From NCBI RefSeq assembly GCF_017656155.1, contig NZ_JACDOH010000001.1, forward strand, positions 186,001-250,000: DNA of 64,000 bases. Reading direction: 5' to 3'. The notes under the pieces were generated by a model. It had not been told where the DNA came from and searched no databases. It worked only from the letters and a program-made list of their open reading frames with translations. Positions 31,652 through 37,758 of the stretch are shown piece after piece. This DNA comes from Thermosyntropha sp. (GTDB taxonomy: Bacteria; Bacillota; Syntrophomonadia; Syntrophomonadales; Syntrophomonadaceae). The number at the start of each line of letters is the position of its first letter. The stretch's first letter is position 1. The translations under genes and the position numbers were made by a program.

Positions 31652-33302
31652 GTGTCTGGTCGTGCGTTAAGATTAGAACTAAGTTTGTATCCGAGTGATT
31701 TAAAAAGGAATTACTTGATTTTATTGAAAAAAATAATATAGACTGCTGTTTGCTTTATGCCTTATATAGCAACATGGTGATTAGAATATTGGAAGTAAAG
31801 AGAGATAATATAAACATAGAATATAATTTGTCTGAATACATAAATTTAGAGATTAACAAAAAATGTCAATTTGCTGATGTTTTAAATTTAAGAAAATCAA
31901 TTGAAAAACATAAAGATGATGACAAAAATATGCTTTTAAAAAATGTTGTGCATGAAATTTATATCCCGGTTGAACAAAATGGCAGGGTTTTGGGGTATGT
32001 TTATCTGGGTAATTTTGCGGAAGAAATAAATGATTTTGATATAAAAAGACTAAATCAAATAATAGAAAACAATATATATGAAATATTAAGACTGGAACAA
32101 ATGAAAATATCTTATAAGATTACTATTGAGAATACAATATTTTTTCATGAAGTATTTAAAAATAGATCTTCTTTTATGGTAAACCATATATATAATGTTG
32201 CTTCTTGGGCGGTACAGATAGCTAAGAGACTAAATTATTCTGATGAAGATTTGACTAGAATTTATTTGGCTGCTCTTTTACATGATATAGGTAAAATCTT
32301 TATTGACGAGGATATTTTGAATAAGCCGGGAAAATTAACAGAACAAGAATATGAGGAAATAAAAAAGCATGTTAGAATTGGTCAATATTTAGCTAGGTAT
32401 ATGTTTTTATTTGATAGAGACAGCCATATTGATGAATGGATATTACAGCATCATGAAAAATGGGACGGCACAGGATATCCCAGGCAATTAAAAGGTGAGC
32501 TGATCTTAAAGGAGCCAGAATTTTGAAAATGGCAGATGCCATGGATGCGATGCTTTCTGAAAGGAGTTATAAAAAACAAATGGATATTAAGGAAACGATA
32601 TTAGAAATCAAAAGATGCAGGGGAAAGGATTTTGACCCCGAGATAGCAGATATAGCTATAGAAATATTAAATGCGAGACTAACCGCAACTGAGCAGGTTT
32701 TTGATGATATAGTGATGCCTGCCAATTTGTTGTTTAGGGCAAATAAGAGAATTTATACTTTAAGTGGTTTCGTCCTAAAGCAAGCTGAACAAGTTTTGTT
32801 TTTGGCAGTAAATTTTATTGATGATTTAGATGATCTTTATGTAGAAAATTTGATTTTAGCCTTTGAGAGGCAAAATATACTTTACAAATTTAAAGTTAAA
32901 AAATATGAAAAAATTGAGGATAATAGACTTCTGTTGAAGGAACTGTCGCCTTTAGAAGCTAATTCAGCATTTAAGCTTTTGTGGATGTTAAGTGGAGATT
33001 TGGTTAATTTAAAGAATAAACAGGTGAAAAGAATAATAATTACGGCTATATCGGGAGAAAGTTTGGATTTTAGTTTTGAAGAAGAAAATGTTCAAATTGA
33101 TGAAAATGATATTTATGCTGTTATAATTAGGTTTGAAGACGGAACAAATGTGCCGGTTTCGGGGAGAATAACCGAAAGGATTAAGATAAATAGAAGAACT
33201 CACTATACTTTTGAGTTTGTTGACCTGCAGGAAAAATATCGGGATGAAATATTTAGGCAGATTTTCCGCAAGCAGATAAGTATAAAGAAGATGTTTAATT
33301 AG
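31652..33302 (+). pseudogene. HD-GYP/PilZ protein gene interrupted by two -1 frameshifts
   Basis: GTG 31652 behind GGGGTGAG opens a frame reading MSGRALRLELSLYPSDLK, which must shift -1 near 31700-31706 to continue as KELLDFIEKNNIDCC and join the frame covering 31750-32526. That frame holds a sensor-like region, then HD-GYP motifs HDIGK and HHEKWDGTGYP. At 32506-32511 another -1 shift is needed to continue as GARILKMADAMDAM into the frame ending at 33302. The C-terminal part (about the last 200 residues) has a PilZ-like ISGESLDFSF segment and a YRDEIFRQIFRKQI tail, suggesting a c-di-GMP-binding output. Either one-base losses in homopolymers have made a pseudogene, or there are sequencing errors, or recoding occurs at TTA-AAR codons. 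Confidence 0.82.
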
Positions 33303-34479: not shown

Positions 34480-34836
34480 ATGATACTGGAAAGAGAAAAA
34501 ATGGAGAAGATGTGGGAATCTGGTGCCAAGATGTCAGAATTATACTGGGGTTTATGGAAAGTTGCGGCGGAAAGTTCAAAATTATGGAAGGAAAAGAGCC
34601 ATTCAATGATGAAAAACTATATGAAAACGAGTAAGGAAATGCTTGATGAACAGATGAAATGGTTTGATGCGGTTCTGATGCAGGCAAGCAAAGGACAGCA
34701 GCAAATGTATACCGTTACCAAGGAAATTGTAATGAGCTCTGTGGAAAATATGAGAAATGCATCGTTTAATCCCTGGCTTTCTTTTATGCAGATGATGAAT
34801 TCGAATGATATAAATGAAGGTGAAAAAACAAATTAA
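34480..34836 (+). CDS. Small phasin/PhaR-like protein
   Basis: A 118-residue, Met- and Lys-rich, helical protein. Residues 10-90 look amphipathic and coiled-coil-like (KMSELYWGLWKVAAESSKLW, MLDEQMKWFDAVLMQASK), as in phasins or the PhaR subunit of class IV PHA synthases. I infer this from composition, size and position: it is the first gene of a three-gene cluster whose last gene encodes a PhaC-like enzyme. It would bind granule surfaces or activate the synthase. ATG 34480 follows GGGGGAGG by 6 bp; TTG 34474 is in frame but too close. No residue motif proves the assignment. Confidence 0.6.
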   Translation: MILEREKMEKMWESGAKMSELYWGLWKVAAESSKLWKEKSHSMMKNYMKTSKEMLDEQMKWFDAVLMQASKGQQQMYTVTKEIVMSSVENMRNASFNPWLSFMQMMNSNDINEGEKTN

Positions 34837-34855
34837 GTAAAATGGAGAGGGAAAT

Positions 34856-36574
34856 ATGGAAAACGAAAAAGACAGAGAATACCTTAGGTATTTAAATTTT
34901 TTAAAAGAAAATCCTGATTATTGTATGGGCTGCAAACTGGAAGAAATTGCAGCTAAAAAACCGGATTTTCCGGCGTTTATATATAAAGATAAATCTATAA
35001 ACTACGGATTGTTTGATGAGAAAGCCAATAAATTTGCCTGCTTTTTTTCCTCTAAAGGCATAAAAAAAGGCGATGTGGTAGCCCTTCTGATGAAGAATTC
35101 TCCCGATTATTTGGCTATGGTTGTAGGTTTAAGCAGGCTGGGGGCGGTAGCTGCCTTAATTATTACCGATTTAAAAGAAGAAAAGTTGGCTGAAGATATA
35201 AGCTTAAGCGAACCCCGCATGGTAGTGGTGGGAGAGGAGTTCACGGATGCATGGGAAAAGGCAAAAGACTTTACAAGACTTCGCTATCCGGGAACTATTC
35301 TTTTTTATCCTCAATTGCTCGCCGATCTTCCTTCCCAGGCTGATAAACCAGAGGTTGCAGTTAAAAATTTTGAACCGTTTGTCTATCTTTATACAGCAGC
35401 CGGTTTTTCAGGGCGTAAGGTAGTTCCTTTAAATCATTTCCGCTGGCTTTTAACTGCTGAAACAGTTCGTATATATGCAGATCTTGCCTCTGATGAAATA
35501 GGATACACGTGTATCCCTTTCTGGCTTAACAGTGGATTTTCCGGGGCCTTTGCAGCCATGATGGCCAGTGAAAGTACTCTGGTGCTTGCCCCCGACTTTT
35601 CAGTAAGCAGTTTTTGGAAGGATGCCGATAAATATAAAACTACTTATTTTTTAGGAACCGGGCAGATGTTTAAGTATCTTTACAGTCAGGAGCCTTCAGA
35701 CTTGGATAAAAAACATGGGGTTAAAAAAGTTTTGAGCAATGGAATGGCTGCAGATTTGTTCATTCCTTTCAAGGAAAGGTTTAATATTGAGCATATTATT
35801 GAAATTTATGGAACAACTGAAAATGTGGGGATTTTAATAAATTTAGAAGAAAGGCCGGGCATGTGCGGTTGTCTCAATTTAGCCGGATTGAGACTGGGGG
35901 AAGTTGTCAGATATGATAAAGATAAAGACCGTATAATCTTTGATGATAATGGCTATGCGGTAAAATCTGAGGTTAATGAGACCGGGGTTCTTCTTTTAAA
36001 AATTGGTGAATACTCTGGGTTTGAGGGATATATCAACAATTTTGAAGAAACAGACATCAGGATTATGCGCAGTGTTTTTGAAAAGGGGGACAGATATTTT
36101 AATACCCGTGACCTGGTAAGACTTCATGAAGATGACTACATTGAGTTTGTGCAAAGGCTTGATGATGTGTATAGATGGAAGGGGAAGACCATATCTGCCC
36201 ATCAGGTTGCAGATATTATTAAAAAGTTTTTCGGACCGATAGACGATGCTCTAGTCGTAGGGATAGATGTAAAAGGTTATGAAGGAAGAGCGGGATTGGC
36301 GGTAATCAAGCTGATTGAAGGGGAGAAGCTTAATTGGGGCAAGTTTGTTTCACATTTGAAAAATCATCTGCCACGCTATGAAATACCTTCTTTTATAAGA
36401 ATTTCCCGGACTGATAAAGGCCTTAGAAAAAACAAATCACGATATATAGAAGAAGGATTTAATCCTGATTATGTGAAGGAGGAGCTTTTTGTATTTGATG
36501 CGGAAAAGGAAGAATATACAAGATTGACCCGGGAGGTTTATGAAGCTGTATTGTGCCATAAGATACGCCTGTAA
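34856..36574 (+). CDS. Adenylate-forming acyl-CoA synthetase-like protein (FATP type)
   Basis: A 572-residue protein of the AMP-dependent synthetase/ligase superfamily, closest in layout to FATP/very-long-chain acyl-CoA synthetases. A5 motif IEIYGTTENVG, an A7-like FNTRDLVRLHEDDYIEFVQRLDDVYRWKG and a final IRISRTDKGLRKNKSRYIEEGF segment are visible. The phosphate-binding A3 loop, normally TSGTTGxPKG, reads YTAAGFSGRKVVP, so ATP handling may be altered or lost. It lies 19 bp after the phasin-like gene and 18 bp before the PhaC-like gene. It might supply acyl- or hydroxyacyl-CoA to the synthase, or act non-enzymatically (inference). Confidence 0.8.
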   Translation: MENEKDREYLRYLNFLKENPDYCMGCKLEEIAAKKPDFPAFIYKDKSINYGLFDEKANKFACFFSSKGIKKGDVVALLMKNSPDYLAMVVGLSRLGAVAALIITDLKEEKLAEDISLSEPRMVVVGEEFTDAWEKAKDFTRLRYPGTILFYPQLLADLPSQADKPEVAVKNFEPFVYLYTAAGFSGRKVVPLNHFRWLLTAETVRIYADLASDEIGYTCIPFWLNSGFSGAFAAMMASESTLVLAPDFSVSSFWKDADKYKTTYFLGTGQMFKYLYSQEPSDLDKKHGVKKVLSNGMAADLFIPFKERFNIEHIIEIYGTTENVGILINLEERPGMCGCLNLAGLRLGEVVRYDKDKDRIIFDDNGYAVKSEVNETGVLLLKIGEYSGFEGYINNFEETDIRIMRSVFEKGDRYFNTRDLVRLHEDDYIEFVQRLDDVYRWKGKTISAHQVADIIKKFFGPIDDALVVGIDVKGYEGRAGLAVIKLIEGEKLNWGKFVSHLKNHLPRYEIPSFIRISRTDKGLRKNKSRYIEEGFNPDYVKEELFVFDAEKEEYTRLTREVYEAVLCHKIRL

Positions 36575-36592
36575 GGAAGGAAGGGGTATAAT

Positions 36593-37723
36593 ATGAATCT
36601 TGATGTGAAAAATGAAAGGATATTAAGCTGGTATAAGGAAAGCTTGTCTTTGATGTTTGCACCGCTGGGTTTTTGGACGGATAAATATCGGAAGACTATG
36701 CGTTATTATGATATTCTTTTCAGCCTTAAAAATCCGCAAAACGGATGGTGCACCTATAACAATATAATTTATGAACATCAGACTTTGAGACTGCGTCATT
36801 TTCCCAATCCTGATGATCCGAAGGCTAGAAGACCTATATTAATACTTCCTCCCCAGGCGGGACACCACTCATGCTTAGCTGATTATTCTCCTGCCCAAAG
36901 TCTGGTTCGGGTTTTTCACCGCTATGGTTATGATGTTTATGTTACCGAATGGCTTTCGGCAACGCCGGAATATAAAGAACTAGGGATAGATGATTATATA
37001 AGGCTCACTGATGAAGCAGTAGAAGAGATCAGGCGGCGTACCGGGATTTATAGAATACACATTATAGGGCAGTGCCAGGGAGGGTGGCAAGCTGCTATCT
37101 ATACTGCTTTATATCCGGAGAAAATTGCGACTTTGGTAATTGCAGCTTCACCTATTGATGTATATGCTGCCCCTTCAGAAATTATTGAATATGCTCGACT
37201 TCCTATGGAGTTTTTTGAATACCTGGTTGCCCGCGGCAACGGTCTTATGGACGGAAGGTATATTTTGATGGGCTTTAAAAGCATGCAGGCTGATGAACAT
37301 TATGTGCGGAAATATCAAAGGCTTTGGGAGATGATTGATAAATGTGATGAAGATGGTATAAAGCGATTCATTCGCTTTGAAAATTGGTATGAAGAAACTC
37401 ATTATCTGCCGGGGAGATTTTACCTTGATGCCATTAAAAATATATTTAAAGAGAACAACCTTACTAAACCGGGTGTATGGAAGTTGAAGGGAAGAGGAAT
37501 AGATCTTGGCAATATCGAGTGTCCGATAATTATTATGGCAGGGGCTAAGGATCACATTACACCTCCGCCGCAGGCTTTTGCCCTCCGCAAATATGTAAAG
37601 ACTCCTCAGGAAAACATCATTGAGATACTCACTCCCGGGGGACATATAGGAACCCTTATGGGAACTGAAGCTTTGAGGGAAGACTGGACTAAGGTGGCGG
37701 AAGTTATGAAGCTGGTTATCTGA
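36593..37723 (+). CDS. PHA synthase-like alpha/beta hydrolase (PhaC type)
   Basis: A 376-residue protein with the lipase-like box GQCQGG holding Cys161 in place of Ser, as in poly(3-hydroxyalkanoate) synthases. Asp320 (AGAKDHITPP) and His351 (TPGGHIGT) complete a Cys-Asp-His triad with spacing close to class III PhaC, and the length (about 355-375) also fits class III/IV. It would polymerise hydroxyacyl-CoA into PHA granules. The small phasin-like gene and acyl-CoA-synthetase-like gene upstream support a storage-polymer role. No phaA/phaB lies nearby. It could instead be a PhaC-like acyltransferase of unknown substrate. Confidence 0.8.
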   Translation: MNLDVKNERILSWYKESLSLMFAPLGFWTDKYRKTMRYYDILFSLKNPQNGWCTYNNIIYEHQTLRLRHFPNPDDPKARRPILILPPQAGHHSCLADYSPAQSLVRVFHRYGYDVYVTEWLSATPEYKELGIDDYIRLTDEAVEEIRRRTGIYRIHIIGQCQGGWQAAIYTALYPEKIATLVIAASPIDVYAAPSEIIEYARLPMEFFEYLVARGNGLMDGRYILMGFKSMQADEHYVRKYQRLWEMIDKCDEDGIKRFIRFENWYEETHYLPGRFYLDAIKNIFKENNLTKPGVWKLKGRGIDLGNIECPIIIMAGAKDHITPPPQAFALRKYVKTPQENIIEILTPGGHIGTLMGTEALREDWTKVAEVMKLVI

Positions 37724-37728
37724 TAGAA

Positions 37729-37758
37729 AGGCTGTTTCCGCCGGGCAGGAAACAGCCT
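37729..37758. terminator. Strong stem-loop between the PhaC-like gene and nhaA
   Basis: AGGCTGTTTCC/GGAAACAGCCT is a perfect 11-bp stem with an 8-nt loop, 6 bp after the PhaC-like stop. On the + strand the T run (TTTTTTATTTTTT) is about 14 nt further on; on the - strand it is CCTTTCT. It sits between convergent genes and may serve both. Confidence 0.7.

Follow-up and report, generated by a model that had tools for sequence, protein, structure and literature searches.

A phasin-like, a ligase-like and a PhaC-like gene in Thermosyntropha as a candidate accessory operon of the polyhydroxyalkanoate granule

The window analysed here is a stretch of 64,000 nucleotides (nt) from a Thermosyntropha sp. 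genome (RefSeq assembly GCF_017656155.1, contig NZ_JACDOH010000001.1, positions 186,001 to 250,000), and within it we studied three consecutive genes that encode a phasin-like protein, an AMP-ligase-like protein and a relative of the polyhydroxyalkanoate (PHA) synthase PhaC. The three open reading frames (ORFs) all lie on the + strand, they are separated by 19 and 18 bp, and each is preceded by a purine-rich ribosome-binding site. An earlier note, made from the sequence alone, had described these genes, their 18-19 bp gaps and a Cys161/Asp320/His351 triad in the PhaC-like protein; the ORFs were confirmed at their positions and the triad is invariant across 22 homologues. The closest named relative is Thermosyntropha lipolytica, with 85% identity over the PhaC-like protein. 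The features are as follows.

34480..34836, + strand: phasin-like helical protein, 118 amino acids (aa), second phasin paralogue of the genome, by homology to the phasin of a canonical pha operon
34856..36574, + strand: FATP-like acyl-CoA-ligase homologue (type A), probable pseudo-ligase, 572 aa, from PF00501, FATP2 and altered motifs
35393..35419, + strand: A3 (P-loop) site of the ligase homologue, TAAGFSGRK replacing TSGTTGxPK, by motif alignment
36425..36427, + strand: A10 site of the ligase homologue, Arg in the place expected for the catalytic Lys, by motif alignment
36593..37723, + strand: PhaC-like Cys alpha/beta-hydrolase of the GxCQGGW clade, 376 aa, from profiles, tree and structure model
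37073..37075, + strand: nucleophile Cys161 in GQCQGGW, invariant in 22 homologues
37550..37552, + strand: Asp320 in DHITPPP, invariant in 22 homologues
37643..37645, + strand: His351 in GGHIGTL, invariant in 22 homologues
37729..37758, + strand: hairpin with an 11-bp stem and a T-rich tail, likely transcription terminator behind the third gene, by folding energy

The hairpin resembles a rho-independent terminator (-21.7 kcal/mol, z = -2.7), and it is on this hairpin that the likely terminator of the operon rests. A strict promoter and terminator consensus scan gave a yield not above chance and did not list the hairpin, because its T-tract starts about 13 nt after the stem.

In order to place the PhaC-like protein we compared it with family profiles. 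Among NCBIfam models, class III PhaC (TIGR01836) scores highest with 164.4 bits, which is far below the cut-off of 365.3, while the canonical PhaC paralogue of the same genome reaches 362.4 bits. The best Pfam match is DUF3141 (PF11339; 99.5 bits, gathering cut-off 29.7); PHB_depo_C (PF06850) is also matched over its cut-off (46 bits versus 27), the intracellular poly-beta-hydroxybutyrate (PHB) depolymerase model TIGR01849 is matched under its cut-off (78.8 bits versus 300.75), and the PhaC N-terminal Pfam family gave no match over cut-off. In a tree of 47 proteins, the 24 class I-IV synthases, the genome's second PhaC among them, form one clade (100/99) without the PhaC-like protein, whose own clade (96/99) falls outside, and the approximately unbiased (AU) test rejected a topology that groups it with class III/IV but without class I (p = 0.029). 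Both the score and the tree rule out the class III/IV synthase proposed in the earlier note. The same note had held that a grouping with non-PHA acyltransferases would speak against its idea; the protein does leave the synthases, and yet it stays associated with PHA.

The oxyanion loop of the PhaC-like protein has the form PxxGH, in which G90 and H91 are common to the depolymerase PhaZ and to DUF3141, while 96% of the synthases have Asn at position 91 and none has G90. Likewise, Q162, F262, F276 and F285 are also found in PhaZ, and the Cys nucleophile, the PxxGH loop and a Gln after the Cys are all present. When compared to class III/IV synthases, which pair PhaC with PhaE or PhaR and include the canonical PhaC of this genome, the protein has in common the fold, the Cys-Asp-His triad, the GxCxGG box and the company of a phasin-like protein; it differs by its separate clade, by the Trp after GG, by a PxxGH loop where synthases have the Asn loop and by an identity of only 29%, and its score stays far short of the class III threshold. 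Its neighbours in the window are the phasin and ligase homologues, and not PhaE or PhaR. Enzymes of the Ralstonia PhaZ1 type (TIGR01849, PF06850) resemble it in the Cys nucleophile, the PxxGH loop, the Gln that follows the Cys and several Phe/Leu positions, but have Pro where the PhaC-like protein has GG after Cys-Gln, and they lack its synthase-like Trp265. DUF3141 proteins share the CQxGW box and the His at position 91, whereas those examined are about 500-600 aa long, sit on a very long branch and have no adjoining ligase or phasin. We therefore treat the PhaC-like protein, on its sequence, as a member of an intermediate clade (box GxCQGGW) between PHA synthases and PHA depolymerases, for which we found no family name. 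A 39%-identical relative is carried by the Burkholderia vietnamiensis plasmid pBVIE02 (L080:7893-8975), where it is annotated as 'PHB de-polymerase domain protein'; the cargo region around it encodes FtsH, MFS and P-type ATPase proteins and has no pha genes.

The ligase homologue matches PF00501 (2.6e-38) and has human FATP2 as best solved relative (E 1e-76 over residues 29-571), so that homology to FATP covers its full length. We aligned 20 distinct operon-linked copies, designated type A, with 5 reference FATP-type ligases and 9 free-standing paralogues from Syntrophomonadaceae, designated type B. The type A proteins form a single clade (SH-like approximate likelihood ratio test, SH-aLRT, 100). 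As in FATP and very-long-chain acyl-CoA synthetases (FATP2, PRK08279) and in type B, full-length homology to the ANL superfamily, the A5 Glu and the A7 Asp are retained. In contrast, the A3 Pro is replaced by Arg throughout type A (20/20, versus 0/14 in type B and references), the A10 Lys is kept in only 6/20 (versus 14/14), and the A8 motif EN has nearly always become KT or RT, with the Glu lost in 19/20 and the Asn in 20/20. The loss of adenylation signatures is greatest in the window copy: TAAGFSGRK stands in place of the A3 motif TSGTTGxPK of active ligases, as aligned without either glycine or either threonine of the P-loop, and an Arg occupies the A10 column where [ST]FK is expected. In the ANL superfamily, a protein without the A10 Lys is severely impaired in forming acyl-AMP.

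A decaying pseudogene is countered by dN/dS (nonsynonymous to synonymous substitution rates) of ~0.10-0.11 in three close pairs of type A ligases and by the fact that, of the 22 genomes with a ligase beside the PhaC-like gene, 21 encode this ligase in one full-length frame. Since the A5 Glu, the A7 Asp and the new Arg-Lys are in addition invariant, the motif changes are change under constraint and not decay. The exception is Syntrophomonas palmitatica (G329), in which the operon-linked ligase (L007:8102-9876) lies in two frames, possibly a pseudogene or a sequencing error. Judged from these motifs, the type A ligase is probably a recruited pseudo-ligase that lost acyl-adenylation, and we infer that members of type A hold AMP, acyl groups or CoA as ligands but do not adenylate. 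A ligase that feeds activated fatty acids to the synthase, as the earlier note had it, is thus unlikely given the loss of the A3 and A10 motifs.

The 118 aa protein itself matches none of the Pfam or NCBIfam families, PhaP_Bmeg and PF05597 included. Its phasin-like nature, already suspected in the earlier note, is supported through its homology (E 4e-13) to the phasin-like first gene product of the canonical pha operon of the same genome, relatives of which match the PhaP_Bmeg/Phasin models. Homologues are found in T. lipolytica and in a genome of another genus (G239), in the identical three-gene order.

This canonical operon lies on the same contig, about 150 kb from the window locus (G000:C1, ~70.4-73.1 kb, L029), and has the class III/IV-like order phasin, PhaR-like, MaoC/PhaJ and PhaC, with PhaC at G000:C1:72104-73084; the PhaR-like gene of the genome is located here. 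A like operon in Syntrophomonas wolfei (Swol_1241, 1242, 1244) is more abundant with a methanogen partner (PMC4324140). The three window genes are hence not the sole PHA locus, and the idea that they take the place of a PHA operon without phaA/B is not supported. Because the canonical operon is present, the window locus is not needed for synthesis, nor is a built-in ligase that feeds the synthase; the PhaJ of the canonical operon already draws monomers from beta-oxidation. Behind the canonical phaC lies a convergent lipase-like gene (c53; 383 aa, L029:10114-11265, - strand) with weak PhaZ7 and lipase matches, which has the same location in Thermosyntropha and five other genomes.

We then surveyed 54 Syntrophomonadaceae genomes, 30 of which carry a window-type PhaC-like protein (two as fragments). 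A canonical PhaC is found in 27/30 of these and in 10/24 of the genomes without it (Fisher p = 2.6e-4, a guide only, as genomes are not independent). In 22 genomes a ligase homologue lies directly upstream of the PhaC-like gene while the wider neighbourhood varies, and a chance pairing is therefore not the explanation. Two Thermosyntropha genomes and G239 share the order phasin, ligase, PhaC-like. The canonical operon of S. zehnderi ends with the ligase and PhaC-like pair, with phasin, PhaR, PhaJ, PhaC, ligase and PhaC-like genes in one run; in G211 the PhaC-like gene immediately follows the canonical phaC. In five genomes (G300, G302, G314, G335, G336) a single convergent lipase-like gene separates it from the canonical phaC ahead of it and no ligase adjoins, so that ligase and PhaC-like gene make a frequent but separable pair. 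The tie of the PhaC-like gene to PHA is broader than its tie to the ligase, and the PHA link is strong. Both the link to PHA metabolism and the conserved synteny that the earlier note had suggested looking for in Syntrophomonadales are thereby borne out, and its broad guess of a distinct storage or acyl-transfer system gains support.

Several arrangements in these genomes deserve mention. The extended pha cluster of S. zehnderi occurs twice, on two contigs, the copies being identical over at least 21 kb (L005, L006; G333 C4, C18), and is either a duplication or an assembly artefact. In one locus (L024, G147:C29) the window-type PhaC-like gene follows genes for a MaoC hydratase and for a helical protein of PhaE-like type, and a second PhaC-like copy is preceded by a shorter PhaE-like protein. 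In G091, a third PhaC relative, N-terminally short (282 aa; L105:8589-9437, - strand), is convergent to the window-type gene and near a PhaE-PhaC-PhaB-like run.

The pair itself has been noticed before. Narihiro et al. (2016) placed the acyl-CoA synthetase Swol_1144/Swmb_02363 beside a 'poly-beta-hydroxybutyrate polymerase' in S. wolfei and strain 4J5 and suggested an association with PHB (PMC5017805); Swol_1144 and the neighbouring polymerase gene in S. wolfei are apparently the same pair as in the window. A full-text literature search for Swol_1144 returned no other paper. Beyond the part of that study that deals with the pair, the present analysis adds the phasin, a survey across the family, the loss of the ligase motifs, the way in which free-standing ligases differ, and the position of the 'polymerase' outside the synthases.

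S. wolfei forms and consumes PHA (PMC4324140), and a depolymerase is for this reason expected in syntrophomonads. TIGR01849 and TIGR02240 were each searched in nine genomes and gave nothing above cut-off, and none of the tested intracellular depolymerase families was over cut-off in the searched genomes that carry the PhaC-like gene. Matches to the i-nPHAscl depolymerase over cut-off were confined to G263 and G321; both genomes encode a canonical PhaC and lack the window-type gene, a pattern that fits one depolymerase replacing another. Two modes of PHA release are known: Ralstonia PhaZ1 releases 3-hydroxybutyryl-CoA by thiolysis (PMC3430594), while in Pseudomonas free acids are released and then re-activated by an ATP-dependent ligase (PMC8764540). 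The Ralstonia-type route would suit the module better, because its ligase probably cannot adenylate.

Taken together, we read the three genes, at about even chances, as an accessory PHA-granule operon in which the PhaC-like enzyme acts on stored polymer with a phasin and a non-adenylating ligase partner. The Cys-Asp-His hydrolase would be an intracellular depolymerase or a remodelling transferase, the phasin-like protein would bind the granule and target the enzyme to it, and the FATP-like protein, derived from a true acyl-CoA ligase, would serve as a partner subunit that binds acyl groups, AMP or CoA. The data show the gene order, the clade, the fold, the triad, the joint occurrence with the canonical operon and a loss of ligase motifs under purifying selection; action on polymer, breakdown rather than synthesis, thiolysis, binding to the granule and a physical complex are all steps that we infer. 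The fuller version, a new PHA mobilisation complex that releases 3-hydroxyacyl-CoA in a CoA-dependent (thiolytic) manner with a dedicated phasin and an ex-ligase as acyl/CoA-binding subunit, spending no ATP and thus suited to a syntroph, is put forward tentatively and we would not bet on it as a whole.

Several observations weigh against the accessory-operon reading. The predicted model of the PhaC-like protein (mean pLDDT, a per-residue confidence score, 90.5) has its nearest structural matches in solved PHA synthases (Z 32-36), well ahead of gastric and lysosomal lipases (Z 26), and the GG after the Cys, Trp265 and Asn288 are synthase-like. A position as sister to the synthases (AU p = 0.38) was no more rejected than one joined with PhaZ (p = 0.49), and the PhaZ branches are long. 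The anti-correlation between depolymerase and PhaC-like gene is weak (p = 0.07; two genomes, one genus). The 6/20 type A ligases that keep the A10 Lys, and several with a near-normal P-loop, suggest that some may still be active; finally, the lipase-like c53 beside the canonical operon could be a rival depolymerase candidate.

Some of these observations lead to a second, divergent PHA synthase with another monomer range, for which the FATP-like protein would be an activating subunit like PhaE/PhaR. The fold, with matches to PHA-synthase structures at 1e-16 and non-synthase hydrolases at Z 26 or less, the invariant GxCxGG box and triad, and the class III PhaC as top NCBIfam match agree with it, as does the PhaE-like protein with a MaoC hydratase directly upstream of the gene in L024/G147. 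We nevertheless hold it to be doubtful: 164 bits stand against a cut-off of 365, whereas the canonical paralogue gets 362, the protein lies outside the synthase clade and has no synthase-type Asn at position 91, and nearly all genomes with the gene already own a canonical synthase. Hydrolytic turnover in the Pseudomonas style, in which the Cys enzyme frees 3-hydroxy acids that the FATP-like ligase then turns back into CoA esters with ATP, would explain the gene pairing and has a precedent in the P. putida cycle of PhaZ and acyl-CoA synthetase (PMC8764540); besides, the profile PRK07868 (994 positions) unites PhaC-like and ligase parts, and the window proteins match its two ends. It is improbable, since the adjoining ligase is without the A3 and A10 signatures, most so in the window, and in five genomes no such ligase adjoins the PhaC-like gene, which there sits behind the canonical operon; moreover, a search for the ligase-hydrolase fusion in Nocardia and Burkholderia records recovered separate halves only and no full-length PRK07868 protein. 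The enzyme might instead be an acyltransferase or thioesterase of fatty-acid metabolism whose substrate is an ester other than PHA (lipid, wax or acyl-protein). The sharing of the fold by many lipases (at lower Z) and the distant Burkholderia and DUF3141 relatives in loci with no listed pha genes would point to this reading, but it is very improbable in view of the phasin homologue in the operon, the recurrent siting in canonical pha operons and the co-occurrence with canonical PhaC.

Elsewhere in the window, an HD-GYP/PilZ gene lies in two overlapping frames, the HD part at 31750-32526 and the remainder at 32523-33302, which starts mid-domain; this looks like a genomic or assembly frameshift (31750-33302).

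The labels 'PHB polymerase' and 'acyl-CoA synthetase' are probably misleading for this gene pair. The ligase looks like a case of a fatty-acid ligase recruited to an operon, its signature chemistry lost and selection maintained. If the GxCQGGW clade is a mobilising enzyme, it would fill the depolymerase gap of the PHA-using syntrophomonads that carry the gene, and would reveal a route by which stored carbon is recovered near the thermodynamic limit.

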